64,000 nucleotides of DNA, taken from the NCBI RefSeq assembly GCF_021134715.1, contig NC_060021.1, positions 248,001-312,000 of the forward strand. The letters are read 5' to 3'. This document shows positions 7,853 through 59,033 of the stretch, in pieces; positions within the stretch are counted from its first letter, which is position 1; each line of letters begins with the position of its first letter. This DNA comes from Daphnia pulex (taxonomy: Eukaryota > Arthropoda > Branchiopoda > Diplostraca > Daphniidae). A program made the position numbers and the translations under genes. The notes beneath the pieces are model-generated. The model was not told where the DNA came from, ran no database searches, and saw nothing but the letters and a program-made list of their open reading frames with translations.

Positions 7853-10767
7853 TTATTGGGGTCCTGTGCTTCGTTGATCTGCGTTTTCTTTGTTGGGACC
7901 AACGGTGTCATCTTGAGACCCTTCAGAAAGCAATTTCATCATATTGGAAGCAGCCTGTGCAAAGAATTAACAAAAAGAACATCAATTAAATAATTAACTT
8001 AAGCTGATTGCCAAAATATAGTCAAGTTATGATTACGTTATCATGGGCTTCTTCCAAAGTGGCACCAAGTCCGTGCGACACTTGCGGAGGATTTGTATTC
8101 AAGGTCACAAGGCTAACGAAATCTCCTTTCTTGCCCTAATAATATTACATTAATTCCAACAGTAAATTAAAATTAGTTTTTAAAATGTTTATTACCTTTG
8201 GAAAATCGGAAAACTCGACCTCGTATTCCAGTACTTGGGCCAAGTACCTTAGACGTATTTCCGGGCGCAACCCTCCAGAAGTCTAAAGATTAAGTAATAA
8301 ATATATGATTTTAAGAAGTGTTGGCAGAGGCATAAGAAAAACATGCCTTGGGCGGACGAGACGATTGAGTAGTTTCTTTAATTCCAGTGGCATTCGATGA
8401 ATCGGTTATGAATGGAGAGTCAATTTTCCTACTCTGTCCGCCTCCTAATAAAAGAAGACCCGGAACCATTTGACGACCTGTGCAATTGCTGTTGGAGAGT
8501 GGCGCATCCTGTAAGAGTGTCTCAACAGCAACTGATGTATCGCTAGAAGCAGATGACTTGCTGGAATCACCAAGAGCATCCAGCGCCTTGAGAGCAGCAG
8601 CGCGTTTGGCGTCTTTTTTTTTAGTTCCAACACCTGTTGCCGTTACCGAGCCAACAGCAACTTCTACAACAAATTCGGGGGACTGACGGGGGATTCCCCT
8701 TTCTGACAAAACAGTAAATACTGGTTCCTTTTCTTTCCTCGCCTGCTGCAGTTGAACTAGTTGAGATATTGGATCTTGAGGTTTTGTGCCAAGGCAACCG
8801 TTAGATGCAGATGTAACATCCTATTAAACACACGGTATAAATAAGCAAGAATGAAATTATTTGAAAGTAATCAGACAAACCTTGACTAAATTGCGTGGCT
8901 TTTTCCTGGCGATGGTTGATTTATTTTTGACGCGGATGCGTGGTGGGCTTACGGTATTTCCTTCCAAAGGACGCAAGACTCCGTTAGGGTGGACTTTCTT
9001 TAATTCATCGATCATGATCTCTGCTGCTTTTCTTTTGGCCACCTAACCCGATCAAATGAATACAAAGAAATTTCCAGATTGAAAAGCGGACCGTATTTAA
9101 AATTATAACACACGACGCACCTTTTTACAGTTTCCTTCTCCTTGAGTAGTAACTTCCCCTAGTTTGCATTGCACGATGAAATTTCTCATGTGGGGCGGTC
9201 CACTCTCATTCAACTAACGATAAAAAAAACTCAGTATTTATTAGATTCACGAATTCTCTTAACGAATCAATTAAAGAAACTTACAACTGTAAATTCTACA
9301 GTTAAATTTAACTTTAGTGCCAATTCGTGAACTAAGGAGACGGGAGATTTTAAATCCGAGTCCGTGTTGGCTTCGCTTATAACTGCAGCCTCTGTAGAAT
9401 GATGATAAGTATAAACGAGGGTACTAAGTAACATTTAATGAGAGAACTTGCCATCCAATTGCACTTTGTCAATCAACGTTTGGCCCCGTAACTGCTCTAG
9501 TGCCTGTTGTGCAGCGTGGTGCCGCGCCGCTTGAGGTTGAAGTCCTTCACCAGTAACGAAAACATGTCCAACTGCTAAAGTAACTCTATGCGTCACTGGT
9601 GCTTGTTGGTAACGATTAAAGTAGTATCTCTAATTATAAGAAAAAAAAAACGTAAGAAGAATTACATGTTTTGCTTGGCTACAAATGAAAAGTACCTGAT
9701 TTGAGCTTGAGGGAAATCGCTGAGACGTGTGAGTATGTTGACGCTGAAAATCGGCGTTTAAAAATCTTTCGTTATGATCCACTTGATTTAATCGAAAGTC
9801 ACCTTTACACACGGGTGATTGCTCACCATCTTCTTGGATCTTGGATTTAATAGACAAAGGCGCCAGATTTGTGTATACAGGTTGAAAATTTAGCTTCATT
9901 GCCAAAGCATTAAGTTCCACAGTTGGGGTAATAGGTTTGTCACATTGAGAGTTTGACATGCATTTCACTTTAGGTTTAGGTTCAGGAACTTGGTAATCAG
10001 TCTTCTTAAGGGCTAGTTCAGCAGCAGCATGTTGTGCTTTCTTAATACTTTGTCCAGTTGCACTATACTGCTCCTCACCTATAAGATATAGAATATTTCA
10101 ATCCTAAATATTACACATATACTGAAATTGCTTTTTTAAAGAGATTTTACCCAATTTCAGGTTCACAACAAATGTTTTCTGATGTGCAGGTCCTGATTCC
10201 TCTGTCAGACGATACTGAGGCTGTATCTGGAAAGAAAACAATTTAAAGGTGACTGTTTAGAAATTTATAGTTGAATTTTCTTTTTGCAGGTCAATAGTTA
10301 CCTTATGGTGGCGAGCAAGCTCATTGACTAGACACATTGGGGTTTTCTTTTTCCCATTCTGCTCAGATTTGTCTTGTAAACCCATTGAGAAATCAGTATC
10401 ATCAGTAGATTCACACCGATTTTCTTTCTCAATGCATCCAACATTCTCAAATGTTTCAATTTTGTGTAACTCTTCAATTGTGTTCTTCAACTCTAAACCT
10501 TGAGCTGGTATCAGGGCTTCTTGTGCACCACCTGACATTTTCCAATTAGGTTCAAATACTGTGAAAACAAAAATACTATTTAGTTTTAATTTAAAATGAG
10601 CAACTAATGTTATATTTTCCTCTTTAATCTTTCACATTTCAAGATAGATACTTGTAACACATCACATAAAATAATTTCAAATATTTTGCAAGTATATGAA
10701 ACATACCCTGATCTTTAACATCTCTGTTTCTTGATTCATAAGCACTTCTTTCTTGAACATTATTCAT
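7853..10767 (-). CDS. stau: Staufen double-stranded RNA-binding protein
   Basis: Twelve phase-consistent coding exons: 10767-10707, 10558-10302, 10226-10151, 10078-9696, 9629-9452, 9391-9285, 9213-9121, 9042-8881, 8820-8347, 8282-8196, 8135-8037 and 7954-7853, giving 692 aa. Five dsRNA-binding domains appear in Staufen order. dsRBD1 starts [14 protein letters not shown] and continues [15 protein letters not shown]. dsRBD2 is split by a long insert, as in fly Staufen. dsRBD3 contains [19 protein letters not shown] and [17 protein letters not shown]. dsRBD4 runs [17 protein letters not shown] to [14 protein letters not shown]. The C-terminal dsRBD5 contains [15 protein letters not shown]. Staufen binds structured mRNA for localisation, translational control and decay. 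Two introns (9451-9392 and 8346-8283) require GC donors. The MULE begins 268 bp upstream of the ATG. Confidence 0.93.
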
Positions 10768-11034
10768 TATAAACAATGAGAATAAGTGCCTTTTTTAGTT
10801 CAATCATAAGAAAACCAGCAGTTTTGTTGAATCTTCTCGACACTTGAAATAACCACAAAAAGTTGGTTTGACTCACAGAATATGTTACAAAACTGTTGAG
10901 GAATATTTGAGAAAAAAATATCAGTACGATTCCATTACAATTAATAGTAAATAAGTGTACGACGAGAAATTTGACGTACTATAGTCGCAAATAAAGCCGT
11001 TTCCTATGATTTATGGAATCCACTTAGGTAAAAT

Positions 11035-11137
11035 CTATTGCACTCCGGAGTCCGGAGCGCTCTAGTGTCAAAAGTGGCTATTGCACTCCGGAGTCCGGAG
11101 TCCTCTAGCGTCAAAAGTGGCTATTGCACTCCGGAAA
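11035..11137 (+). repeat. MULE left terminal inverted repeat with tandem 43-bp subunits
   Basis: The TIR is made of two 43-bp tandem units, each beginning CTATTGCACTCCGGAGTCCG and ending TCAAAAGTGG, followed by a partial third unit (CTATTGCACTCCGG). The palindromic core ACTCCGGAGTCCGGAG recurs in each unit. Confidence 0.93.
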
Positions 11138-11433
11138 GGAAATATGTAGTACTTTCATTTGGCGACCGATGGCATTCTGTTTCTGTGTTTTGAAATTTGA
11201 ATGGATTAGATTTGAATTCTTTGGAAATTCAAATAAAATGTATTTATAACAATCAAATATATTTGAATCTCAATAATAAATAGAAATAGTCAGTGTATAG
11301 AAGGAACTTTTATTTCGTTATCGTTAACTTAGCTAGAGTACAATGTCCAACATTGAATCAGTACCTTACAATTCAAATTGTAAATATTTATAAACATTTC
11401 AATTCAGGGTGATATTTCTTGTTAACCAAACAG

Positions 11434-11616
11434 GTTGTTAAACACGCTATAAACGCACGACATAGTGAGTCACCCTCTGTCGCCCCCTTACTTGCCTGAA
11501 GGTCGAGCCGGAGTTCTCAGAACGGGGCTTCAAGGGGTTCTTTGTGACCTTTAAACGCATTGACCAACAACTCACTATTTCTGCTGATTGATTCACACGT
11601 AACGTGTGATTCAGCT
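11434..11616 (+). repeat. 183-bp direct repeat, copy 1 (inside MULE)
   Basis: Starts GTTGTTAAACACGC and ends with the small palindrome CACACGTAACGTGTG followed by ATTCAGCT. It recurs nearly unchanged 223 bp downstream. No coding frame is shared, so it is probably a sub-terminal structural or protein-binding repeat. Confidence 0.9.
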
Positions 11617-11656
11617 ATATTACACAGAGATCATTATATTCAAAGTATAAATTTAT

Positions 11657-11839
11657 GTTGTTAAACACGCTATAAACGCACGACATAGTGAGTCACCCTC
11701 TGTCGCCCCCTTACTTGCCTGAAGGTCGAGCCGGAGTTCTCAGAACGGGGCTTCAAGGGGTTCTTTGTGACCTTTGAACGCATTGACCAGCAACTCAAGA
11801 TTTCTGCTGATTGATTCACACGTAACGTGTGATTCAGCT
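11657..11839 (+). repeat. 183-bp direct repeat, copy 2 (inside MULE)
   Basis: Second copy of the unit at 11434, with only a few substitutions, including the terminal CACACGTAACGTGTG palindrome. Confidence 0.9.
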
Positions 11840-12345
11840 GATTTCACGCTATAAACCATGCAATGCCCGTGTCTCTTATTCCAATAAACTAACAGCTAAA
11901 CACGTCTTTCATATCTTGAAACAAAACAATACAAAACTAAGTTAACATGCAGATGCAGTTTACTTTATTATAGTGAGTGTTATAATATCAAAAGACATTT
12001 TAACTGAATTGTGAGTGCGAAAAAATACTTGGTATTTTCGTGTTTAATTTCAATCGGTGCTTTGTCATCACATGAATGAACTGACAATGAAAAAGTAATT
12101 GATTTAAGAGGGGGAAAGAATTGGCACATGGTGCGGCGTCAATCAAAGATCCTTTAAGAGCGGAATATGGAAGCGCCTTGTCCTTTGATGATGGATTGCT
12201 TTGGGTTCCAACGCCGCGGAGATAATCATAAACAAAGTTAACCACTCCTCTTTTTGGCTACCAGTATTTTGTAACATCTATCTCCCTTATATAATAATGT
12301 TGGAAAAAGAATATTCCTCAATAGAGTTCAGTGCCTCATCTCAGA

Positions 12346-15300
12346 ATGTCGTTGCTAAAATCACTTGCCTTAAATCAGACTTTTGATAGTAATTCAGAGA
12401 TTGTAGAGTTTATTAAGCAGTTAGAGACAGAAAATGTATATTTGCGTCGTGGTCATTGTGAGTCAATTAGTAGTTACAACAATGACCGAAGAAATCAAAT
12501 CGTACTTGACGAAAAGTTTGAGTTTAAAAGAATTCAATACATGTGCCCTCATTTTGGTACTCACAAATCACGATCAAAGGGTTCACGACTGAACCAAAAT
12601 GTGATGCCAAACAATTGTCCAGTGCAGATTAGATTTGTTTTTAATCCAGTTAGTGAAAAGTTTGAGATCAAGGTCTTGGAGTTGGAGCATAAAGACCACC
12701 CTGTTTCTGCGGAACATGTCAAGACCTATGCAAGAAAAAGGTAAGATTTACTTTTACATTGGTTTCCAAATTTCATTAATGTGCTAGAACTATTTACTTT
12801 ACATTCCGTGTGATGTAATAAGGTTTTGTTGTATGTTCGATTAAATGATTGGATTTCATGTTATATATTTCCTGGAATGACCTTGTCGACCTTGTTGCAC
12901 GTTATTACAGGCATATGAATGACGAGGCCCTTAGTTTCGCCAACGGTGCGCTTTCTGCCGGCGCTCAACCGACTAAAATTCGCAAGATTCTGCAAGATAA
13001 ATTCGGTTCCAATCTCATTAGCAAGGACCTGATTAATATGAAGCAGAAATTAATAGGTTAGCGAACACACTTAATTTTTGTAAAACCATTTTACTTGAAC
13101 AAATCAAGGACAACTTTTTTCTGTCATTAGGGAATTTGGAAGACGATTGGAGCAATTCAGTTAGCTTTCTTGATAGTCTACAACAAGATCCAAACAACGT
13201 CGTCAAAGTGCTGCACGACCCGGAAGGAGAAGTCACCGCTATTTTCGTGCAGCTAGAAAAGCAACGCAAACTGTACAAAATGTACGGCAAAGTCGTCGAG
13301 GTAGACGGGACTTACAATATTGATCAAGCTGGATTTGCGCTGTATCATTTGCTGATAGAAGACAATAATGGCGATGGTCAACCCGTAGCTATGTTCTTCA
13401 TTAGAGAAGAGACAACGGAAGCGATTTCTGAATGCCTGCGAATATTTGCAGAGGTAATGACTGTCTAAATTAGATTTTAAGTGTTTCTTATAATCAAACT
13501 TGACTGTACCTACAGAATAACGACGTCTCCATGACAAAAGTGACCATATCCGACAAAGACTGCGCTGAGATAGCCGCGTTGGAGAACTGCTTTCCTCATG
13601 GGGTTCACATCCTTTGTCAGTTTCACGCATTGAAGGCCGTAGACGTCTACATAAAGAAACCAAAGGACGGCGAACGCGTAGACAAAGAAAAAATCCACGA
13701 AATTATTAAACACTTTCGTGCGGCTATGTATGCTGAAACGCAGGCTGATTTTGAAACAGCAAAAGCGTACCTGTTGAAACAAGGTGAATCGATAGTTAAA
13801 GATAATCTATAGAATGTATTAAAAATGTGTACATACTTCATAGGTTCCGGACCAGGAAGTATTGCAGCATACTTCGAAAATAACTGGTTCAACATAGCCG
13901 ACAAATGGAGTAACCTTGGACGTCGAAATCTTCCAACGTTTGGTAACAATACCACCAATCGTCTTGAACGGTAAAACACGCTATTAAATTTTCATTTACA
14001 TCACCGATAACTAAATACCTGAATTACATTTTAAGATTTCACCACACTATCAAGGATGTCCTCCAGAAAACCAAGCGATTGTCAGAAGTTCTCCGCAATT
14101 TAATAGACATCGTTTTGATACGCCTTTCTGACCGAAAAATGAAACAGTGCATACGAGAGGTAAAATTCTCCAAGAAGGAAAAGCATCCGTTGATCAAAAA
14201 GTTTGCGGACACCATCTCCCCTTTTGCTTGGGGCCATCTCGAAGCAGAACTGAAAATAATGAAAGAGAATTACAACTTCGTACTTAATGAGGTTAATAAA
14301 TTGTTTGTTATTTTTTTAAATGGATCTAATTTATAAATTCTGCTTAGGAATCATCAACGTACCACATAGTTTCACGCTACACTACGTACAAATTGAAACA
14401 AGATCTCACTGGCTGCACGTGCAAGTTTTTCTTGGATTTTCAACTGCCTTGCCGCCACATTATCAACTTCCACATCAAAGAAAACACCGAAGTTCCAGTG
14501 GGATCATTTTCTAATCACTGGTTAAATGAATGTCTGGAGGTAAAGCAAAGTTAAAATGATTATCGATAACTAAATTTATTTTTTAAACATTTATTTGTTA
14601 CAAGAATGATGCGGTCGTTTCCGCAAGCGTTTCATCGCCATCTGGAGTTCAGCGTCCGAAAAAGACCCGGCTGCGTGCAACGGGGAAAAGCCAATATATC
14701 ATGGCCACTAACGTTTTCCGTAGGATGGCCGACACGATGAGTGGACTAGCAGCCTCCGACTTCGAAGTCCAATTGCACTTCTTCCTTAACATTCACAAAT
14801 TAATGAAAGAGGGGAAACTCCTTCGAGTAATGGAAGACGAGAAGCAGGAGACCGAGAATCCTTCGAACAACTCACTGGTTGATTCTCCGACTGTTGCGGA
14901 ACGTATTGAAACATCTACAGCAAGGACCAAGGCAAATATTTAAAACAATCGAACAAACATATGGTATTCTAACAAAAAATACCTTTATAGGTTTTTGCTC
15001 AACCTTGGGCATCGCTCCGTCTTCCCGTTGCCCCTGTTAAAAGAGGCAGGCCAAAACAGGACAAAGGATATTTTACTGCTTACAAAAAGAAGTCGAAGAC
15101 AACGCGTGACGATGTTTCAGTGGTGGATCCAGATCCAGATGAGAAGAACGTGAAGCCTAGGAAACGATTGAGAACAGAAAACGTAAGCAAATGTCTTATA
15201 CATCCTAACAATACGTATAATAACTGTACTGTGTTTCTCACTTTTGTTTAGATGGGTGGAATTATGAGCAGAGAGATGGAGGAAGTGCTAATTTTGGCTG

Positions 15301-16563
15301 AGGAAGAAGAACACATGAAGGATTATTATAATCAAGATTCGTCATCACAGCTTCAGGAATTACCTAGTACATTAGAGGTAAACAAGTATTATTAATCCAT
15401 TGAAAATTATCCAAGTTAATACTAATTGATCTTCAATAGATAACTATCGACGCTCCCATCATACCTACACCCAGCGTAGTTTCACCTGTAAACAAAACAG
15501 ACGTTCGCATCACCACAGCCGCTGATGTTCCACCAGTCGATGAAGTGGACGTGTCCATCATTGATCACAACTACACATTGATCACAACTACACCCAGCGA
15601 AGTTTCACCTGTAAACAAAACGGACATCAGCATCACCACAACCACTGATGTTCCACCTGTCGATGTCACACTGATCACAACTGCATTACCCGATAATTCT
15701 GTAGAGGTAACAAAATGATATTTGGAAGAATTTCAGAAAAATGATTCGAATTTCCTTACTTCCTTTAATAGCTTGTGTCTTCGACTGATGGTTGCCTCCG
15801 AAAAAACCGAAATAGACGGGACAGGAGTAAACAACCCTATCTTTTCTTGGACAAGCCGCAAGTATTAACAAAGACGAACAAACTCATGTCAGGCGACATC
15901 AACAAGGCGCAGGCAATCCTGAAAAAGCAACATCCAGAAATAGGTGGTCTGTTCTGCTGTACAATTGGAGGCAGCCTTGAATTCCCCCGAGCGCAGGGCG
16001 ATCAATGGTTGCAGATCGTTCATGACGGATCGGATCACTGGGTATTAGTTGCCAAAGGGTTTATTCAACGTGAACATGTACTGGTGTATGACAGCAGTCC
16101 CGGCAATCCATGGAGAAACGAGCATGTCCTAAGTTGTATGTCCAGTCTCCTCCAATCACCTGAAAAGGAAATGACATACATCATCAAAGATTGTCAACGG
16201 CAGAGCAATGGGTATGATTGCGGGGTATTCGCGATTGCTTTTGCTACGAGCTTGGCATTCGGAGAAGACCCTGCAAAAAGAATGTATGACCCAAAAAAGT
16301 TACGCCCTCACCTTATTCAGTGTATGGATTCCGGCGAACTAACTCCATTCCCATCAGTTGAAAGTCGTGCAACAAGGACTCACGAGACTGTCGAAGCAGA
16401 ATTATTGTATTGTACCTGTCGCAGGACAGGCTGGGAGAAAAATGGATTTGAGTTTATCGGATGTGACACGAATGGTTGCGACGGTTGGTTTCACAAAATG
16501 TGCATCAATAATTGTCCTAAAGATATGAATGATAAATGGTTTTGTATTAACTGTCAATTGTAA
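12346..16563 (+). CDS. MULE transposase fused to SWIM, AT-hook, ULP1 protease and PHD finger
   Basis: Twelve exons join in frame to 1136 aa: 12346-12740, 12911-13056, 13131-13453, 13516-13783, 13844-13970, 14036-14291, 14348-14539, 14605-14931, 14991-15182, 15252-15377, 15440-15706 and 15772-16563. The N-terminus has a C...C...HKDH pattern of the FAR1/FLYWCH kind. The MULE transposase core has VEVDGTY (D about 239), ISDKD (D about 301), HILCQFHALK, and NTTNRLERFHHTIK (E about 419), so the DDE residues are present. A SWIM finger CTCKF...PCRHI lies near 528-542 and an AT-hook KRGRPK near 697. The C-terminal C48/ULP1-like domain keeps H962, D980, Q1017 and C1023 (SDHW, VYDSS, CQRQSNGYDCG). A PHD finger occupies about 1086-1134. 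One intron (14932-14990) needs a GC donor; without it translation would stop soon after the SWIM region, leaving the protease as a second gene. Confidence 0.85.
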
Positions 16564-16879
16564 CTGTCTCAAATAAACTTACTGTACAAAGAAATGTTGC
16601 TTATCACCATTCGTCCGTTTTCCCGCGCATACACCGACCAAGACACTGAGCAGCGTGCAAATAACAGCGGTGTCCTCACGAGTTTTCTATCGAGAAGACA
16701 TGGCGACCTGGTCGTTTCCTTTTGATACGATCTACAGTCGATATAAGAGTTATTTTGACTTGGAGGTTGTAGGAAATTAGGCGTAAATCAACTACCATTG
16801 GCAGAATACATGGCCTAGCCAAAGTCATAGTAAATGACATCATTATGACTGGATGAAAGTCGAGGATTTTGGGATCAAT

Positions 16880-17610
16880 AATGTTGGAGAATCACCATGT
16901 ACAGCAGAAATTTATTTCCTATCATTCCCTCTTCATTAACACACCTATAAATGAGAAATAAGCATTGTTAATCAAACTAATTTCAAACACAATGTTCTAT
17001 GAACCTGGTTACAATCAGAATGCCATCGTAGAGTGTATGGCCTGCTGGAAATCACCAAGTACAGCAGAGATTTAATTGCAATCATTCCCTCTTCATTATC
17101 ACACACCTATAAATGAGAAATAAGCATTGTTAATCAAACTAATTTCAAACACAATGTTCTATGAACCTGGTTACAATCAGAATGCCATCGTAGAGTGTAT
17201 GGCCTGCTGGAAATCACCAAGTACAGCAGAGATTTAATTGCAATCATTCCCTCTTCATTAACACACACCTATAAATTAGAAATAAGCATTGTTAATCAAA
17301 CTAATTTCAAACACAATGTTCTATGAACCTGGTTACAATCAGAATGCCATCGTAGAGTGTATGGCCTGCTGGAAATCACCAAGTACAGCAGAGATTTAAT
17401 TGCAATCATTCCCTCTTCATTATCACACACCTATAAATGAGAAATAAACATTGTTAATCAACTAATTTCAAACACAATGTTCTATGAAACTGGTTACAAT
17501 CAGAATGTCATTGTAGAATGTATGGCCTGTTGGAAATCACCAAGTACAGCAGAGATTTATTTCCTATCATTCCCTCTTCCTTTATGCACACCATAAATAT
17601 TAAATGTTAA
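16880..17610 (+). repeat. Sub-terminal tandem array, about five units of 162 bp
   Basis: Units contain ATCACCAAGTACAGCAGAGA, CATTCCCTCTTCATTA, CACAATGTTCTATGAACC and a GTGTATGGCCTG block. They start near 16886, 17046, 17208, 17371 and 17532. The middle units are almost identical and the outer ones more diverged, as expected for unequal crossing over. The array ends just before the right TIR. Confidence 0.92.
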
Positions 17611-17750
17611 TCAAACCAATTGACTAACGAGAAATTGCGAATCCAATTGAACGAGGCAATTGCGAAGAAAGAGGCAAAAAGTTTTAACGAGGTGATGAGA
17701 GTCAAAACACAGAATCAGTCGTTATTTGATTTGCCATTCGTCGCCATAAA

Positions 17751-17853
17751 TTTCCGGAGTGCAATAGCCACTTTTGACGCTAGAGGACTCCGGACTCCGG
17801 AGTGTAATAGCCACTTTTGACACTAGAGCGCTCCGGACCCCGGAGTGCAATAG
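17751..17853 (-). repeat. MULE right terminal inverted repeat
   Basis: Reverse complement of 11035-11137 with two substitutions, including the same two 43-bp subunits and partial third unit. Confidence 0.93.
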
Positions 17854-18621
17854 GCGTGACCATCAACTTATTCGTTTACGCATTAACTATTCCAATATTT
17901 TTGTAAAGTTTCGCAGTTCCTATGAATATTCGTGCACGAAGTACTTCACTAAATTATACAGAGGTCTTTCTAATGTAAATGTAATTAGCAGTGCGTCTGC
18001 AAGAACTGCCGCATTTCCTATGTTATGTTACCTCAACAACACTGTTTATACGTGGAAAGGAAATATGGAAGTGGGAAGTGATCATAGTCTACTCTATTTG
18101 AAGAAGCCGAAAGGTTACCGTGTCGGAAAGTGAAGCAAATTTTGCTTATACCCTTTCCTCCAACTTTCCTGCCTGGATATTACTCTGCCATCTAGTGGTC
18201 GATGTAATATTTCTTTGAAAAAATTCGGACGTTTTTCTAGAAAAGCAAGAAGTTAACGAAGCGAAAAAGTGGGTGACTCAATGGAGCGAGAGATAGCCTT
18301 CAAAGTTTAGTACTACCAATTTTCCGTAATAAAATTCATTTTGGGATTAGACATTTAGACATCCATAACTCCTCCTCCTCGGATGGTCTGTGTTGATTGG
18401 TCCTGCTCACTCCCGTATAGTCCCGTAATTACGTCGTCTGCTATTCAAGATTTTTATGTTTGTTTGTTTTTTTTCAAAAAGGTCCTGTCTAATTCGCTGT
18501 GGAATTAGTGAATTACATTTTATGCCGGTTGGATTTCCTCAGTATCATTGATCATATATATTTTATTGTTGCATTACTTAGTAGTTAGGCTACTTGAGAT
18601 TGTTTTCAAGAAACGACGGCG
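17854..18621. other. Intergenic, upstream of ALKBH6
   Basis: Flank of the transposon and presumed ALKBH6 promoter. An open frame across 17870-18133 runs out of the TIR and resembles no protein I know. A CCATCTAGTGG motif is present near 18188. No gene is called. Confidence 0.5.
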
Positions 18622-52907: not shown

Positions 52908-54113
52908 GGAAGATTATATGCTTTTATAAAATGTTGACGGTATGGCATCTGTTGTTTTAGCTGCTGCCAGTTGCTCTGATTCGATTACGTATTAGGCGGG
53001 GGGGTCCTGTATATTTCACTTTTGCCTTGTATAACTTAATGAGAATAGATTGCCTTTTACCACCCAACGAATACGGTACCTGCTATAGACCTGATCAGTC
53101 TGATGCCACGAAACGGCAATCATGAAAGGCCATGGCTTGATATGAAGATGCCGTACTCATTAAAGCAGCCGGCCAGCCGGTATAAAGGAAAGGTAGGTAA
53201 TGGAGAGTGGGGGTTAAAATTGTTTAAAATTTGAAGTTTCAAAGCTAGAAAAGAGAAAAAAGGTATAAATAGTAGAAAAGAAATTGGGTCGGAATTACTA
53301 ACACGTTCACCCAACAAAACTTAATAATTCGACACCAATTATTCGACGCTTCAACAACAAGCAAAGCAACTACATTTCCGCAATGGTGTGAAAATATTTC
53401 GACAACGGATGTAGCGTACAAATACTTTGACCTAACCTAACTTAAACTTAACTTAACTAACTTAACCTAATCTTAAAAAGAATTGTCAAAGTACTTTTGC
53501 TACACTGTGTCGACGTATTTTGTCACCAGTCGAAATGCAGTTGCCTTATAATGTTGAAGGTAACATCAAATGGAAGGTGTCGAATTAAAGTTTGGTCGGA
53601 TGAAACTTGCAATATCTGACCCAATTATGAAAGAAGATGATGAAAAAGATAAAAAGAAATGATGAAGGAAAAGTATTAATGGGTAGAAAAAGAATAAGAA
53701 AGAAAGAATACACGGGTCATCAATTTTCTCATCTTCCGGTCATCCACCCGTCCTGTCTACTTCCGGTCATCCACCTGTCCTGTCTACTTCCGGTCATTCA
53801 CCTGTCCTGTCTAATTCCGGTTTCCACCTTCCCTTCATTTCTCAGATCCTCAATTCTCTTTTCTTTCAGTTCCTTCCCATCCACTCTCGATCTCAACTTC
53901 CTCATCTCTTCTTCTCTTGGCTCCTGGTCCAATCCGCCCTCTCTCCGCCCACCCTCTACCTACTCTCCTCCCATCCGGTACCCAACTGGACGAAACCTAA
54001 AAGTTTACCCTGAAATCAATCGAACAATGGCCCTGTAGATTTGTACTGCCGACGCGTGTAACGACCATCTGGGTATCAGATCGGTATCAGATTCTCCACT
54101 GTTGGAGCAGTCG
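52908..54113. other. Non-coding interval downstream of the large C2 gene
   Basis: Contains TTAACC/CCTAA-like degenerate repeats at about 53430-53475 and a 27-bp tandem array at 53733. A TATA-like GGTATAAAGG near 53178 is followed by no usable frame. No gene seen. Confidence 0.5.
53733..53820. repeat. 27-bp tandem repeat with ACCGGAAG core
   Basis: Three units of CTTCCGGTCATCCACC plus TGTCCTGTCTA, followed by a partial fourth (ATTCCGG). Each carries ACCGGAAG on the minus strand, an ETS-like core also found in the MITE. Confidence 0.88.
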
Positions 54114-57100
54114 TCATTTCGCCTTCCTTGTGAGCTTTTGCCTTTTGACCTCTGCCGGTCTATGAATCTCCACCTCAAGACAAGCGTCGCCCACCCGATT
54201 TTTGGACTTGTCGTACAGTTGCAGCTGAGTGAGGCCTTCGTCACAGGTGGACATTCTAAGTTTAACGAAGCCGACCGTGGACTTCCTTAAACCAAAATTC
54301 GACAACTTTTTTACTTTGGCGATCAATTTAAACCTATACTGATATCTAGTCTTTATGATATAATCTTCGTTCCATTCCGGCTGGCTACCACGGATGGTTT
54401 CGGTTTTTATTTTCTTGAACAGGGTGGGGAACAGGCCGTGCCATTCCTCGACCCGTATGGAAACGTAATATTCGTCTGAATCCTTTGCATCCGGAAAGTT
54501 GACTCCTCTCACAACTTTGATTTGGAAATTCTTAGGTGCTGTCCGGTTTCCTTCCTCGCAATCAGGATGGCCGCATACTGATTGCTTTGGTGCTGCTTCC
54601 GGTTTCTCATCCGTTGCCCGATTCTGTAGAAGCTGAGATTTTTCGCGATTTGGGGGCAATACGTGTAGGTCTTTTGTTATATGACCAAATTGATTATCAG
54701 TGGTATTGGATTGAGCCTTTGATGGCTGTTCCTCAACTTGTTCACTTTCCTCAGGTATAATCGTCTCTTCGGCTATTTCAAGTAGATCAGTTTCACCCAG
54801 CATCGGAGTGTCCTTGTGTTCAGAAACGATCTCTGGTCTTGAAATAACTTCCGTCAGCGGGTACTTTATCTTTATCTCCAGCTCAACACAAGATTTACCC
54901 ACTGGATTGTCAGACTCGTCGTAGAGTTGCAGCGTATTGACTTGATTTTTCATCAAGTTGGACACTTTAAATACGGCGGAACCGACCGTGGACGTTTTCA
55001 AACCCAATATCGACTTTTTCAGTTTAATTGTGAACATCCAATTTTCCGGATACTGAGTATGAGCGATGATCATTTTTTTATTCCACTGTGGCTGGCTGCC
55101 GTGGATGGTTTTAGTTCTGAATTTCCTGGACTGGACGTGTCTCAAACCGAACCATGATTCGGTTGCCTCGGCACGCAACGAAACGTAATAATTGTCCTTC
55201 GCTTCCGGAAGGTTTACTCCACCGATAACTCTGATTTTGATCTCCTTATAAGGGTTCCGGGGTTCGCAATCGCACTTTCCGGGATGCCAATCAGACTTTT
55301 CGGGATTTGGGGGCGATGCGTGTGGGTCTTTTGGTACATGGCGGGGCTGATTGTCCTTCTTGTTGAACAAATTAGATTTTTCGGAATTTGAGGGCAGTAC
55401 CTGTCGATCTCCAGGCTTATTTCGGAATTGATTATCAGCGCTCTTATTGGATTTAGCTTTTGATGGCTGTTCCTCAACTTGTTCACTTTTCTCAGGTATA
55501 ATTGTCTCTTTGGCGATTTCAAGTAGTTTAGTTTCAACCACCGGATCTTCGTTTGTCACATTTCCGGTGTCGTCAATCGTCTGCTGCAAATTATCGGACA
55601 GACTCTCCGGTTCCGGCCTTTTCTCGTCTATTTCAAATCGTTCGTTAGACGAAGGTATTTCAGCCGAAGTCTCCTTGGGTTTAGAAACGATAACTGGGCT
55701 TGGAATGACTACCGGCAGCAGGTACTCGATCTCCACTTCAAGACAAGCTTTGCCCACTGGATTGTAAGACTTGTCGTACAGTTGCAGCTTATTAAGGCCG
55801 TCGTCCAAGCTGGATAAGTCAAGTTTAACGAATCCGACCGTGGACGTCTTCAAACCCAATATCGACGACTTTTTTACTTTGATGGTCATTCGACACTCTT
55901 CCGGATTATGAGTCTTGATGGTAAAGTCTTTGTTCCATTCCGGCTGGCTACCGCGGATGGTTTTAGTTTTAATTTTATTGTCCTGGACGCGGTTCATGCT
56001 GCGGCATTGCTCGACCCGCATGGAAACGTAATATTGGTCAGAATCCTTTGCTTTCGGAAGGTTATCTCCTCTCAGAAATCTGATTTTGAAATGCTTCAAA
56101 GGCTTCTGGTTTCCTTCCTCGCAAACAGGCAGCGGCTGTGGTACTTCCCGTTTCTCATCCATTGCCCCATTCTGTTTCTGTGGAAGTTGAGATTTTTCGG
56201 AATTTGAGGGCAGTACCTGTCGATCTCCAGGCTTATTTCGGAATTGATTATCAGCGCTCTTATTGGATTTAGCCTTCGATGGTTGTTCCTCAACTTGTTC
56301 AATTTCCTCAGGTATAATCGTCTCTTCGGCGATTTCAAGCAGTCTAGTTTCAACCACCGGATCTTCTTTTGTCACATTTCTGGTGTCGTCAATCGTCTGC
56401 TGCAAATTCTCGTTCAAACTCTCCGGTTCCGGCCTTTTCTCGTCCGTTTCAAATTGTTCGTTAGACGCAGGTTCTACAGCTTCAGGCGTGTCCTTGGGCT
56501 TAGAAACGATCTCTGGGCTGGGTTCTTCCGGTTTCTCATCCATTGTCTGATCATTAAGAAGTTCTGGTTTTTCAGGAATTTGGGACTGCACCTGTGGATC
56601 TCCATAATTATCACGGAATTGAGCCTTTGATGGCTGTTCCTCAATTTGTTCACTTTCTTCTAATATCGTCTCTTTGGCTTTTTCAAGTAATTCAGTGTCA
56701 CCTACCGCATCTTCATTAGTCACATTTTTGCCGTCGTCTATCGTCTGCTGCAAATTCTCGGTCGGATTCTTCGGTTCAGGATTTTTCTCATCCGTTTCAA
56801 GTTCATGTTCATTAGACGGAGGTACTTCAGCGGGAGTCTCCTTGGGTTCAGAAACGATCTTTGAGCTGGGAATGACTTCTGGCAGGTAGTCGATCTTGTA
56901 CTCAACCTCAAGACAAGCATGTCCCACTGGAGAATAACAGTCGTACAGTTTCAGCCTATTGATTTCATTGACTTTCAATTGGGATACGCAAATAACGAAT
57001 GAAAAGACCGTGATTGACGTCTTCAAACCCCATTTCGACAACTTTTTGAGTTTAATGACCAACACCCACTTTTCCGGATTTCGAGTCTTGATGGTAAAGT

Positions 57101-59033
57101 TTTGATTCCACTGTGGCTGGCTACCGCGGATGATTTTGGTTTTGATTTTCTTGAATTGGACGCGGTTCATGCCGTGCCATTCCTCTAACCGCATGGAAAC
57201 GTAGTAGTACTTGTCAGAATCCTTTGCTTCCGGAAAGTTTACTCCTCTCACAACTTTGATTTGGAAATGCTTGGGCGTCCTTTTTCCTTGCTTGCAATCA
57301 CGCAGCGGCTCTGGTGCTTCCGCTTTCTCATCCATTGCCCCATTCTGTTTCTGTGGAAGTTGAGATTTTTCGGGATTTGAAGGTAATGCGTGTGAGTCTT
57401 TTGGTACTTGGCGGGGCTGATTATCAGTGGTCTTGGATTGAGCCTTTGATGGCTGTTTCTCAACTTGTTCACTTTCCGCAGGTACAATCGTCTCTTCGGC
57501 CATTTCAAGTAGTTCAGTTTCACCTAGCACCGGATCTTTGTTAGACATATTTTTTCCGTCGTCAATAGTCTTCTGCAAATTCTCGTTCAGACTCTTCGGT
57601 TCCGGCTTTTTCTCGTCCGTTTCAAGTTGTTCGTTAGACGGAGGTACTTCAGCCCGAGTTACCTTGGGTTTAGAAACGATCTCTGGGCTGGGTTCTTCCG
57701 GTTTCTCATCCAATGTCTGATCATTTAGAAGTTCAGGTTTTTCAGGAATTTGGGACTGTACCTGTGGATTTTCAGGCTTATGAAGGAATTGATTATCAGT
57801 GCTCTTATTGGATTGAGCCTTTGATGACTGTTCTTCAACTTGTTCACTTTCCTCATTTATAATCGTCTCTTCGGTGATTTCAGTTAGTTCAGTTTTACCC
57901 AGCACCGGATCTTTGTTAGACATATTTTCGATATCGTCAATGATCTCGGGCAAACTCTCCGGTTTCGGCTTTTTCTCGTCCATTTCAAGTTGTTGGTTGG
58001 ATGGACGTTCTTCAACCGGAATGTCTTTGGGTTTAGAAACTGGCTCTTCTGGCGCTTCCAGTTCCTGATTCTCGGCTTGCATTTCGTTGGATAAACTCTC
58101 GGTGGCGTAAATAGCTTCCCGTGTTTGAAAGTTGAGACTCTTCGGGTTGTTTTGGAGCATTTCAAATTGTTCTTTCACCAGCCCATTTGGTTTTTCGACT
58201 TTAATGCCGACTTCCTCGCCATTCCTCGGGGTCAGACTACTCATTTGATCTCCCAGTTGCTCGATTGTGTCGGTCTGGTTGTTAAGGGATGCTCGTAGTT
58301 CTTCCACTTCCGCCTTACTGGATAGAAGAAGACGATTGGTATCTTCCATTTTTCGCCTCAATTGTGAATCGTTTTCGGCCAAACTGCGATTTTTCCTTTC
58401 AAGTTCAGAAATGGTTCTACTCTTTAACTCAAGCTCACGTGTAGCCACGGCCAACTCGCGCGTGTCTAATTGTTGTTCGGCAAGGCAAACGCGGAGATTT
58501 TCCAATTCCGCCCGACTGGATGCGATAAGGTTATCCTTGTCTTTTATTTCTCGCCTTAGCTGCGAATGCTCATTTGTCAAGCGGAGATTTATCTCTTTTA
58601 TGTCAGAAATTTCTCGTTTATTTTCTTCGAGTTCGCTCTTGGTAGTTGCCAACTCGTCGTGTACGTTCTGAAACATTTGCAGCTTTGATGAGGAGTCTGT
58701 CAGTTTGGATTGAAGCAGACTCAACTCATTCTCCAAGCGTTCATTTTCCAATACAGTCTGGTTTTTATCATCGTCTTTCGCCATCAAAGGAAGACAACTT
58801 TGTTGGTTCAAGTCATCTCCGCTGGGAGTCGAAAGACCTTTGTCAATTGCAAGTTTGGTTGCGCATAAAACGTCAGGTTCAATCATCTTCAGGTTAACAG
58901 CCGAAAGCCGAGTTTGTGATTCGGTCGATCGACTGAATAAATCCATCAAGTTGCAATCTCTGCCTATATCCCAGCAGACATAAGCAAAAAGCAAAGCCAA
59001 TATAGTGACTGCCAAAATGTCTATAACGATCAT
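54114..59033 (-). CDS. Membrane-anchored coiled-coil protein with four C2 domains
   Basis: One uninterrupted frame of 1639 codons from the ATG at 59033; the frame extends three codons further, but only to a GTG. aa 2-23 form a hydrophobic anchor (VIDILAVTILALLFAYVCW). aa 92-270 are strongly heptad-like with E/K/L-rich text, a probable coiled coil. C2-like domains lie near aa 587-714, 980-1103, 1262-1389 and 1500-1624. Each has the pattern I.VLRG.N.P.AKDSD.YYVS, TKTIRGSQPEWN, GLKTSTVG, and VGKACLEVE. Six linker repeats precede or separate them (motifs SNEQLETDEK, NLQQTIDD, EETIIPEESEQVEEQPSKAQS). The loop equivalent to the calcium-binding D-x-D is basic. Anchor plus coiled coil plus tandem C2 recalls membrane tethers, but no known family is recognised. 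It is intronless, unlike every other confidently called intact gene here except its small paralogues. Confidence 0.85.
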   Translation of the reverse strand: MIVIDILAVTILALLFAYVCWDIGRDCNLMDLFSRSTESQTRLSAVNLKMIEPDVLCATKLAIDKGLSTPSGDDLNQQSCLPLMAKDDDKNQTVLENERLENELSLLQSKLTDSSSKLQMFQNVHDELATTKSELEENKREISDIKEINLRLTNEHSQLRREIKDKDNLIASSRAELENLRVCLAEQQLDTRELAVATRELELKSRTISELERKNRSLAENDSQLRRKMEDTNRLLLSSKAEVEELRASLNNQTDTIEQLGDQMSSLTPRNGEEVGIKVEKPNGLVKEQFEMLQNNPKSLNFQTREAIYATESLSNEMQAENQELEAPEEPVSKPKDIPVEERPSNQQLEMDEKKPKPESLPEIIDDIENMSNKDPVLGKTELTEITEETIINEESEQVEEQSSKAQSNKSTDNQFLHKPENPQVQSQIPEKPELLNDQTLDEKPEEPSPEIVSKPKVTRAEVPPSNEQLETDEKKPEPKSLNENLQKTIDDGKNMSNKDPVLGETELLEMAEETIVPAESEQVEKQPSKAQSKTTDNQPRQVPKDSHALPSNPEKSQLPQKQNGAMDEKAEAPEPLRDCKQGKRTPKHFQIKVVRGVNFPEAKDSDKYYYVSMRLEEWHGMNRVQFKKIKTKIIRGSQPQWNQNFTIKTRNPEKWVLVIKLKKLSKWGLKTSITVFSFVICVSQLKVNEINRLKLYDCYSPVGHACLEVEYKIDYLPEVIPSSKIVSEPKETPAEVPPSNEHELETDEKNPEPKNPTENLQQTIDDGKNVTNEDAVGDTELLEKAKETILEESEQIEEQPSKAQFRDNYGDPQVQSQIPEKPELLNDQTMDEKPEEPSPEIVSKPKDTPEAVEPASNEQFETDEKRPEPESLNENLQQTIDDTRNVTKEDPVVETRLLEIAEETIIPEEIEQVEEQPSKAKSNKSADNQFRNKPGDRQVLPSNSEKSQLPQKQNGAMDEKREVPQPLPVCEEGNQKPLKHFKIRFLRGDNLPKAKDSDQYYVSMRVEQCRSMNRVQDNKIKTKTIRGSQPEWNKDFTIKTHNPEECRMTIKVKKSSILGLKTSTVGFVKLDLSSLDDGLNKLQLYDKSYNPVGKACLEVEIEYLLPVVIPSPVIVSKPKETSAEIPSSNERFEIDEKRPEPESLSDNLQQTIDDTGNVTNEDPVVETKLLEIAKETIIPEKSEQVEEQPSKAKSNKSADNQFRNKPGDRQVLPSNSEKSNLFNKKDNQPRHVPKDPHASPPNPEKSDWHPGKCDCEPRNPYKEIKIRVIGGVNLPEAKDNYYVSLRAEATESWFGLRHVQSRKFRTKTIHGSQPQWNKKMIIAHTQYPENWMFTIKLKKSILGLKTSTVGSAVFKVSNLMKNQVNTLQLYDESDNPVGKSCVELEIKIKYPLTEVISRPEIVSEHKDTPMLGETDLLEIAEETIIPEESEQVEEQPSKAQSNTTDNQFGHITKDLHVLPPNREKSQLLQNRATDEKPEAAPKQSVCGHPDCEEGNRTAPKNFQIKVVRGVNFPDAKDSDEYYVSIRVEEWHGLFPTLFKKIKTETIRGSQPEWNEDYIIKTRYQYRFKLIAKVKKLSNFGLRKSTVGFVKLRMSTCDEGLTQLQLYDKSKNRVGDACLEVEIHRPAEVKRQKLTRKAK

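Follow-up and report, generated by a model that had tools for sequence, protein, structure and literature searches.

Some plant MULEs carry accessory genes as separate units, and those carrying ULP belong to different MULE clades from the Daphnia pulex element described here, often encode ULP as a separate gene and, to our knowledge, contain no PHD finger. These plant elements (Kaonashi/KI-MULE and those of melon and rice) share with it the combination of a MULE and a ULP1 protease (PMC2836005). In animals, Mutator transposons with an Ulp1 domain are known from hydra and lancelet through Repbase reports; as compared by description only, they resemble the D. pulex element in this combination but have cnidarian and cephalochordate hosts, and the legend to Fig. 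1e of the same paper refers to an alignment of Ulp1 domains and of PHD domains from 'Ginger1 TPases, Mutator TPases' (PMC2836005). Ginger1-9_HM is listed there with Ulp1 and PHD, both C-terminal to the transposase as in the D. pulex protein, whereas its core is Gypsy-integrase-like and its target-site duplication (TSD) is 4 bp, as against a MULE core and a 9-bp TSD here; Ginger-5_HM contains a GC-AG intron, like intron 8 of the present gene (PMC2836005). Rehavkus elements possess terminal inverted repeats (TIRs), a 9-bp TSD, a PHD finger and, ahead of the 3' TIR, a minisatellite (PMC6446971); the D. pulex element has every one of these features. The termini of Rehavkus-1_TC contain a 164-bp repeat, compared with a 162-bp unit here; however, a protease goes unmentioned in the available parts of these accounts, and the likeness is one of descriptions, not of aligned cores (PMC6446971; PMC10218199). 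Phantom elements count crustaceans among their hosts, have a TSD of 8–10 bp where given and contain SWIM in some cases, while those of aphids have a minisatellite after the ORF, as found here (PMC6446971). Unlike the present element, and as compared by description only, Phantom is presented with neither a protease nor a PHD finger in the available parts of the sources (PMC6446971; PMC2884549). Ten Mutator families are reported from D. pulex itself, the representatives of which are all called Phantom-like (PMC2884549). Unrelated transposons (MULEs and Ginger1) carry ULP or OTU proteases and PHD fingers; an active role of the proteases in transposition has been offered as one possibility (PMC2836005).

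The window, the whole 64,000-nt stretch of D. pulex DNA analysed here, contains a 6,835-bp transposon of the Mutator superfamily (positions 11027–17861). It is flanked by a 9-bp TSD, whose left copy (ATCCACTTA; 11018–11026) has one mismatch to the right copy (ATCAACTTA; 17862–17870), and is bounded by 111-bp TIRs, the inner 103 bp of which are 98% complementary. The left TIR (11027–11137, +) starts with GGTAAAATCTATTG and contains 2.3 copies of a 43-bp unit, while the right TIR (17751–17861, −) terminates with GCGTGACC. A 223-bp tandem repeat (1.8 copies; 11434–11839) lies in the 5' non-coding part, and a minisatellite of 4.4 copies of a 162-bp unit (16885–17598) lies immediately inside the 3' TIR. 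The features by which Mutator elements and MULEs are recognised, namely a TSD of about 9 bp, a MULE DDE domain with its triad and long TIRs, are thus found together. The ends of the element, its other copies and its target duplications had no place in the initial annotation of this DNA.

Three full copies of the element (that of the window, L007 and L008) are located on three contigs, each with its own TSD, and contain zero differences across the gene (12346–16563); L007 exceeds the window element by exactly 162 bp. The 9-bp duplication is perfect in four of the five copies examined, including L007 and L008, while the window copy has 8 of the 9 positions matching. Among 40 TIR matches in the genome, 33 share at least 97% identity; the three full copies account for six of these, and the remaining 27 fall into 12 pairs and three singles. 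The 12 additional pairs look like non-autonomous offspring; two of them were read (L078 and L079), and both contain the 223-bp tandem repeat. As identical full copies with perfect duplications occur alongside TIR-sharing derivatives, the family appears to have moved recently, and the element looks recently active and autonomous; since three identical genes lie in three copies bounded by TIRs and TSDs, the gene is also beyond chance. The best explanation as a whole, which we regard as probable, is a DNA transposon of the Mutator superfamily that has been active recently, is apparently autonomous and has one gene for a fused transposase, whose parts would have the roles proposed below. This element gives a handle on why transposons carry host-like protease and histone-reading domains, and because it is intact, exists in three identical copies with clean target duplications and has TIR matches at many sites, that question is directly testable.

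The gene (12346–16563, +) is composed of twelve exons (12346–12740, 12911–13056, 13131–13453, 13516–13783, 13844–13970, 14036–14291, 14348–14539, 14605–14931, 14991–15182, 15252–15377, 15440–15706 and 15772–16563), which splice to 3,411 nt and 1,136 aa with zero internal stops, as the initial annotation had it. The introns are 56–170 nt long with a GC content of 18–31%, and 10 of the 11 are GT-AG, the exception being intron 8 (GC-AG). The predicted protein contains, in order, an N-terminal finger, the MULE DDE core, SWIM, an AT-hook, a C48/ULP1 protease and a C-terminal PHD finger. Its description as fitting no described family was too strong, since Ulp1-carrying Mutators, Ginger1 with Ulp1 and PHD, and Rehavkus with PHD and minisatellite are already described; what stands is that the exact combination was not found described, a MULE-SWIM-C48-PHD protein being absent from the literature searched, with Repbase and most subscription papers outside its scope.

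The transposase half begins with a ZSWIM3_N-like zinc-finger region (aa 9–116; 12370–12693), which scores 24.5 bits against a Pfam cut-off of 27.8, followed by the DDE/RNase-H MULE core in exons 3–5 (13131–13970), where the Pfam matches (aa 197–328) to the ZSWIM1-3 RNaseH-like domain (PF21056; E = 4.6e-26) and MULE (PF10551; E = 1.3e-14) exceed the curated cut-offs. The core contains D239, D301 and E419, which we take by motif to be the catalytic DDE triad, and the insertion motif C322/H325. In the structure database, the matches listed for the core had E values of 0.09 or worse and were taken as chance, none being a credible counterpart. The SWIM motif CTC...CRH in exon 7 has its CxC...CxH ligands (C528, C530, C540 and H542) complete, and an AT-hook was identified by motif (KRGRPK, aa 695–700, with the core RGRP at 696–699; 15039–15056). 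By analogy with their families, the zinc-finger, SWIM and AT-hook regions are predicted to contact DNA of the TIRs or of the target, and cut-and-paste transposition is predicted to be the task of the DDE core.

The Peptidase_C48/ULP1 domain (aa 955–1039; 16015–16269) was found by Pfam at E = 4.9e-5 (23.7 bits against a cut-off of 20.7) and contains the putative catalytic residues H962, D980, Q1017 and C1023, while the C-terminal Cys4-His-Cys3 PHD finger (16411–16554) has all eight ligands (C1087, C1089, C1104, C1109, H1114, C1117, C1131 and C1134). All residues that had been listed for the triad, SWIM, protease and PHD were thus located. Profile searches, which had been named as the check on these domains, returned MULE and C48 above the Pfam cut-offs, but SWIM (15.0 bits against a gathering cut-off of 19.6) and PHD (16.3 against 24) fell below theirs with their motif ligands complete. 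The PHD call is nevertheless supported by a phmmer search of the PDB, which finds known PHD fingers, the best matches being those of KDM5A (PHD3, 2.4e-5), ING4 (3e-5), ING5 and BPTF (2.4e-5 to 9e-5 overall). The PHD fingers of KDM5A, ING4, ING5 and BPTF are specific for H3K4me3. Three aromatic residues of the window PHD (Y1086, F1101 and W1112) lie by sequence at cage-like positions, presumably those of the aromatic cage of methyl-lysine-reading PHD fingers.

A profile built from six C48-PHD tails for the structure-database search matched 6dg4, OtDUB, SENP1, Ulp1 and SENP8 in its C48 part, and PHF2, EBS, PHF8, SPP1, TAF3, KDM5A and BPTF, among others, in its PHD part. Editing of marks or steering by chromatin through the tail would fit these relatives. 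The PHD finger may tether the complex to the tails of histone H3, with H3K4me3 at active promoters as the likeliest mark, and the protease would strip SUMO or a related modifier (NEDD8 and ubiquitin being possible) either off the transposase or off the chromatin and repair factors at the site, which would ease integration or repair. It is possible, if rather unlikely, that element and protein are as described but the protease instead targets NEDD8 or ubiquitin or self-cleaves the fusion, and that the PHD finger recognises H3 in its unmodified form or does no more than stabilise the fold. SENP8 and OtDUB among the C48 matches favour such other substrates, whereas the top match, 6dg4, is a SUMO protease; as to the PHD finger, the position of W1112 is taken by a cysteine in L023 and in L030, a close copy of it, and is a gap in L028, against which stand the three aromatics and the best PDB matches of the window PHD.

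In two MULE groups of this genome, C48-PHD matches, whole or in part, lie downstream on the same strand at 11 of 31 loci of the one (the three full copies included) and at 13 of 30 of the other, and upstream at one and zero loci; at the other 20 and 17 loci, a downstream C48-PHD is absent among the matches listed. TIR-like stretches occur beyond the PHD end in L010 (47 nt at 81%, about 70 nt away) and L009 (44 nt at 84%, about 850 nt away), so the tail lies inside those elements too. Most relatives are decayed: all eight PHD ligands are kept in 7 of 17 loci with the PHD aligned in whole or part, and of the 25 distinct loci for which C48 was aligned (33 alignment rows collapsed, some loci being near-identical copies), 17 retain H-D-Q-C complete, a catalytic residue being lost or missing from the alignment in eight. 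Saturation of dS affects many comparisons; in those that allowed an estimate, dN/dS is 0.096 (L009), 0.12 (L072) and 0.14 (L010) for C48, 0.29 (L009) for PHD, and 0.08–0.19 for the C48-PHD of L019 against L021, L033 and L034. Both domains therefore look constrained between lineages where measurable, while young copy pairs (0.47–1.7, the range to be expected once copies have inserted) lend constraint no support.

The stretch 13421–15133 is 89–95% identical to L071 and L051/L061, whereas the protease half of L071 shares only about 72% identity with the window. This drop places an approximate boundary at 15133, near which the tail recombined separately from the core, and the tail behaves as a module able to pass by recombination from one MULE lineage to another, roughly at the AT-hook. 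On a bolder reading, which we consider rather unlikely, the C48-PHD tail would be a portable, chromatin-addressed SUMO/NEDD8/ubiquitin protease that is under selection in transposons, is required if insertion is to be efficient or directed to promoters, moves between MULE lineages through recombination at the AT-hook and may have been taken up once by a pogo-like transposase (L074/L021). A pogo transposase with this tail is not a general architecture, as just 1 of 52 pogo-type loci has C48 downstream; only three 12-nt inverted words were found around L074/L021, all of low complexity, and the pairing may be an accidental juxtaposition. That the tail was picked up from host genes as a mere passenger and brings the element no advantage, we consider improbable: capture of gene pieces is known for MULEs (PMC6446971) and many copies here lack intact protease or PHD residues, but the identical domain order recurs in two MULE groups, H-D-Q-C persists at most aligned loci, and the dN/dS of the C48 and PHD stretches with unsaturated dS is 0.08–0.29 between lineages.

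The critical junction between the transposase and the protease half is intron 8 (14932–14990, +), whose GC donor is of the rarer type. The locus might instead comprise two transcription units, a transposase stopping at 14943 and a separate C48-PHD gene comparable with the accessory genes of plant MULEs, as read-through of the GC donor would end at a stop three codons on, and exons 10 and 12 contain ATG codons. However, exon 9 starts without ATG, and no AATAAA or ATTAAA occurs between the signal at 14295 and the candidate poly(A) signal AATAAA at 16572–16577, 8 nt past the stop codon. Moreover, L009 has an intron at the same position and phase with GT-AG borders, and L019, a distant MULE-associated relative, contains SWIM, C48 and PHD in one 695-aa frame without a stop, its SWIM motif being seen by eye with no Pfam match and its PHD scoring 19.8 bits against the cut-off of 24; in L073, a Pfam MULE domain lies upstream. 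The shared intron of L009 and the SWIM-to-PHD frame of L019 support the exon 8–9 join, and the two-gene reading is disfavoured and judged very improbable. The predicted gene structure and relatives in the same genome lend good support to the proposal that this animal MULE encodes a single spliced fusion.

A domesticated host gene, as the intact multi-exon structure and a best Pfam domain named after ZSWIM1/3 proteins might suggest, is rejected as scarcely credible because of the TSDs and identical copies, three identical genes lying within TIRs and 9-bp TSDs on three contigs amid many TIR-sharing sites. One scan for relatives in viral contigs gave 28 pattern matches, none of which was confirmed. 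Segmental duplication of a chromosome end was ruled out, as the copies resemble the window only as far as the element ends and every one of them is flanked by a TSD of its own; the three full copies begin about 126–259 kb from the contig starts.

The gene at 12346-16563 (+) lies within a Mutator-superfamily (MULE) element of 6,835 bp, which extends from 11027 (GGTAAAAT...) to 17861 (...GCGTGACC), its ends being set by comparison with two other full-length copies, L007 and L008. The terminal inverted repeats (TIRs) are 111 bp long, with 98% complementarity over the inner 103 bp, and a 43-bp subrepeat is present within them. Repeats also occur further in: one of 223 bp in the 5' part of the element, and a minisatellite (162 bp x 4.4) immediately internal to the 3' TIR; the L007 element is longer by exactly 162 bp. 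There are zero differences over 12346-16563 among the three full-length genes. Target-site duplications are 9 bp long and perfect in four of the five copies examined, reading ATCCACTTA/ATCAACTTA at the window copy, AAAAGATTG at L007, GTTTTTTTC at L008, and CAAAACAAA and ATTTACCAT at the non-autonomous derivatives L078 and L079, respectively.

As proposed in the initial annotation, the twelve exons keep one frame, and the spliced translation of 1,136 aa is uninterrupted. The introns are AT-rich (56-170 nt), with GT-AG splice sites in ten and GC-AG in intron 8. Pfam places the MULE and Peptidase_C48 domains above their curated cut-offs, together with a ZSWIM1-3-type RNase-H fold, but SWIM and PHD fall below theirs, as does a ZSWIM3_N match. 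The C48 part matches the SUMO protease 6dg4 in the PDB (4.7e-5) and retains the predicted catalytic set (H962-D980-Q1017-C1023). The 56-residue PHD also retains its ligands, all eight being present, and matches KDM5A PHD3 (2.4e-5), ING4 (3e-5) and BPTF (9e-5), and so remains credible despite its sub-cut-off Pfam score.

The weakest join of the model is that of exons 8 and 9 (14931/14991), which uses the GC donor and where readthrough reaches a stop after three codons. L071, a related locus, shares the GC intron at this join, which is weak evidence for it, as L071 is a close relative. In L009, whose protease part shares ~70% identity with that of the window, an intron occurs at the same position and phase as window intron 8 but has a GT donor, the junction running from ...PKNEK to ISSWAAIHLTVATRKRGRPK, where the window counterpart runs from TARTK to VFAQPWASLRLPVAPVKRGRPK. 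L019 contains a single 695-aa open frame with, in order, a SWIM motif (recognised by eye, without a Pfam match), a basic motif, a linker, a C48 domain that passes the Pfam cut-off (2.7e-5) and a PHD that does not (8.2e-4), and part of this linker could be an intron that stays open; upstream of this frame lies L073, with a MULE domain (PF10551, 1.2e-7, above cut-off). No AATAAA or ATTAAA occurs between 14295 and 16572, both of which are themselves such signals, the latter 8 nt past the stop codon.

Genome searches with the C48-PHD part (the tail), the window-type and L073-type MULE cores and a pogo core gave, after clustering, 62, 31, 30 and 52 loci, respectively, where the two MULE groups are set by query and not by tree, and the 62 C48-PHD loci are whole or partial matches. 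A C48-PHD match follows in the same orientation, no more than 5 kb downstream, in 11/31 window-type loci (the three full copies are among these, as are several near-identical ones on C8) and 13/30 L073-type loci; it lies upstream on the same strand in 1/31 and 0/30, and nearby on the opposite strand in 0/31 and 1/30. The tail lies within the elements L010 and L009, as TIR-like stretches are found beyond their PHD ends (47 nt, 81% identical to the window TIR, ~70 nt past in L010; 44 nt, 84%, ~850 nt past in L009). Among the matches listed, 20 window-type (n = 31) and 17 L073-type (n = 30) MULE loci have no C48-PHD neighbour, and 38 of the 62 C48-PHD loci have no MULE of either type upstream; these unpaired loci probably reflect truncation and limits of the search. 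Residue states were read from 33 rows with duplicates, collapsed by count to distinct loci that include some near-identical, non-independent copies: H-D-Q-C is kept in 17 of 25 loci with C48 aligned, and all eight PHD ligands in 7 of the 17 whose PHD is fully or partly aligned. In L074 and L021 (G000 C8:5950158-5957200, minus strand), a transposase frame (Pfam DDE_1, 2.8e-13), which we take to be pogo-like, precedes on the same strand a GRKRPRP motif and, resembling that of L019, a C48-PHD tail. As only one of the 52 pogo loci has a C48-PHD match downstream, the pairing may be accidental or reflect a single fusion.

By the Nei-Gojobori method, applied between lineages and between recent copy pairs, dN/dS of C48 is 0.096 for window versus L009 (second stretch), 0.12 versus L072 (first stretch) and 0.14 versus L010, and that of the PHD is 0.29 versus L009. 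Values are 0.17 for L019 versus L021, 0.08-0.19 for L019 versus L033 and L034, and 0.24-0.78 for the MULE core of window versus L071; dS is saturated in all remaining between-lineage stretches. Recent copy pairs give 0.47-1.7, as expected for post-insertion decay. Over 13421-15133, introns included, the window is 89-95% identical to L071 (which lacks ~14500-14628) and L051/L061, whereas the L071 protease half is ~72% identical with saturated synonymous sites. As a uniform history would not give such a difference, the alignments indicate that core and tail differ in ancestry, with the break in exon 9, past the AT-hook. L071 (C12:3332400-3337000) and L051/L061 (~C12:2.508 Mb) are decayed; their similarity to the window transposase half begins at one common point, and window aa 1-270 have no match in the sequence examined at either, which suggests a non-autonomous lineage with a replaced 5' part.

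ULP1-bearing plant MULEs, invoked in the initial annotation, are indeed described, the Ulp1 domain being reported from Mutators in plants as well as in hydra and lancelet, and the same source shows Ginger1 and Mutator transposases in a joint alignment of their Ulp1 and PHD domains and lists Ginger1-9_HM with Ulp1 plus PHD (PMC2836005). Rehavkus is described with a PHD finger, a TSD of 9 bp and a minisatellite ahead of the 3' TIR, and some Phantom members have SWIM, with a minisatellite in aphids (PMC6446971); the termini of Rehavkus-1_TC carry a 164-bp repeat (PMC10218199). The kind of element is thus known in its parts. Ten Mutator families of D. pulex have representatives all called Phantom-like, in a paper whose main text does not mention PHD, protease or SWIM (PMC2884549), and the main text of a 2026 MULE survey of 4,268 arthropod genomes does not mention protease, PHD, SWIM or Daphnia (PMC13359780). 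The statement in the initial annotation that the combination could not be placed in a described family is therefore justified only in part: its components are known, but no description of a demonstrably mobile arthropod MULE uniting all of them was met with in the portions of the literature covered, Repbase lying outside that scope.

Judging from their families, the N-terminal finger, SWIM and AT-hook would bind DNA, and the DDE core would carry out cut-and-paste transposition with 9-bp staggered insertion. When six tails are combined into a profile, its C48 part matches 6dg4 (Ulp1-like SUMO protease), OtDUB, SENP1, Ulp1 and SENP8, and its PHD part PHF2, EBS, PHF8, SPP1, TAF3, KDM5A and BPTF, as well as KAT6A and KMT2D among others. 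Several of the first seven PHD proteins are H3K4me3 readers; KAT6A and KMT2D are not known as such. From these relatives, the most likely role of the tail would be to dock on H3 tails at active chromatin, where C48 would locally strip SUMO or a relative from transposase or host factors.

In the genome searched (133.19 Mb, 13 contigs), the left TIR has at least 40 matches, at least 33 of them with ≥97% identity across the aligned part. The three full copies account for six of the 33 such matches listed; the remaining 27, apart from three singles, group into 12 pairs, which span 1.6-2.0 kb in 11 cases and 5.7 kb in one. Together with the identical genes of the full copies, these pairs, which resemble non-autonomous derivatives, indicate recent movement of the family. 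Two of the 12 pairs were read in sequence: L078 (1,816 bp) keeps the non-coding element ends and nothing of the gene, and L079 (G000 C8:5509650-5515420), the 5.7-kb pair, is a similar derivative with a large nested insert, whose 440-aa opposite-strand frame resembles a hAT transposase in its motifs (no Pfam match).

In the region 9630-11026, a minus-strand gene has its candidate start codon ~260 bp from the window copy, which lies upstream of it; a double-stranded-RNA-binding motif (Pfam, 21.7 bits against a cut-off of 23) is present in the product, which is, we assume, Staufen-like. At L008, the distance from the element to a candidate start codon downstream, that of an unnamed 253-aa frame, is ~80 bp. 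The L007 copy (C9) sits between two parts of an apparent single BTB/POZ frame (L007 1265-1606 and 8607-9416, flanks read separately; Pfam 3.5e-21), which it seems to interrupt. All three full copies are thus in or close to reading frames, a number too small to claim site preference. They are found at C5:259027 (window), C3:125514 and C9:155607, all <260 kb from the contig start, and the other TIR sites are scattered along the contigs. Elsewhere in the window, AT skew computed in 2-kb steps is strong over 54001-58000 (-0.22 and -0.30), more so than in any of the remaining steps, which range from -0.17 to +0.14.
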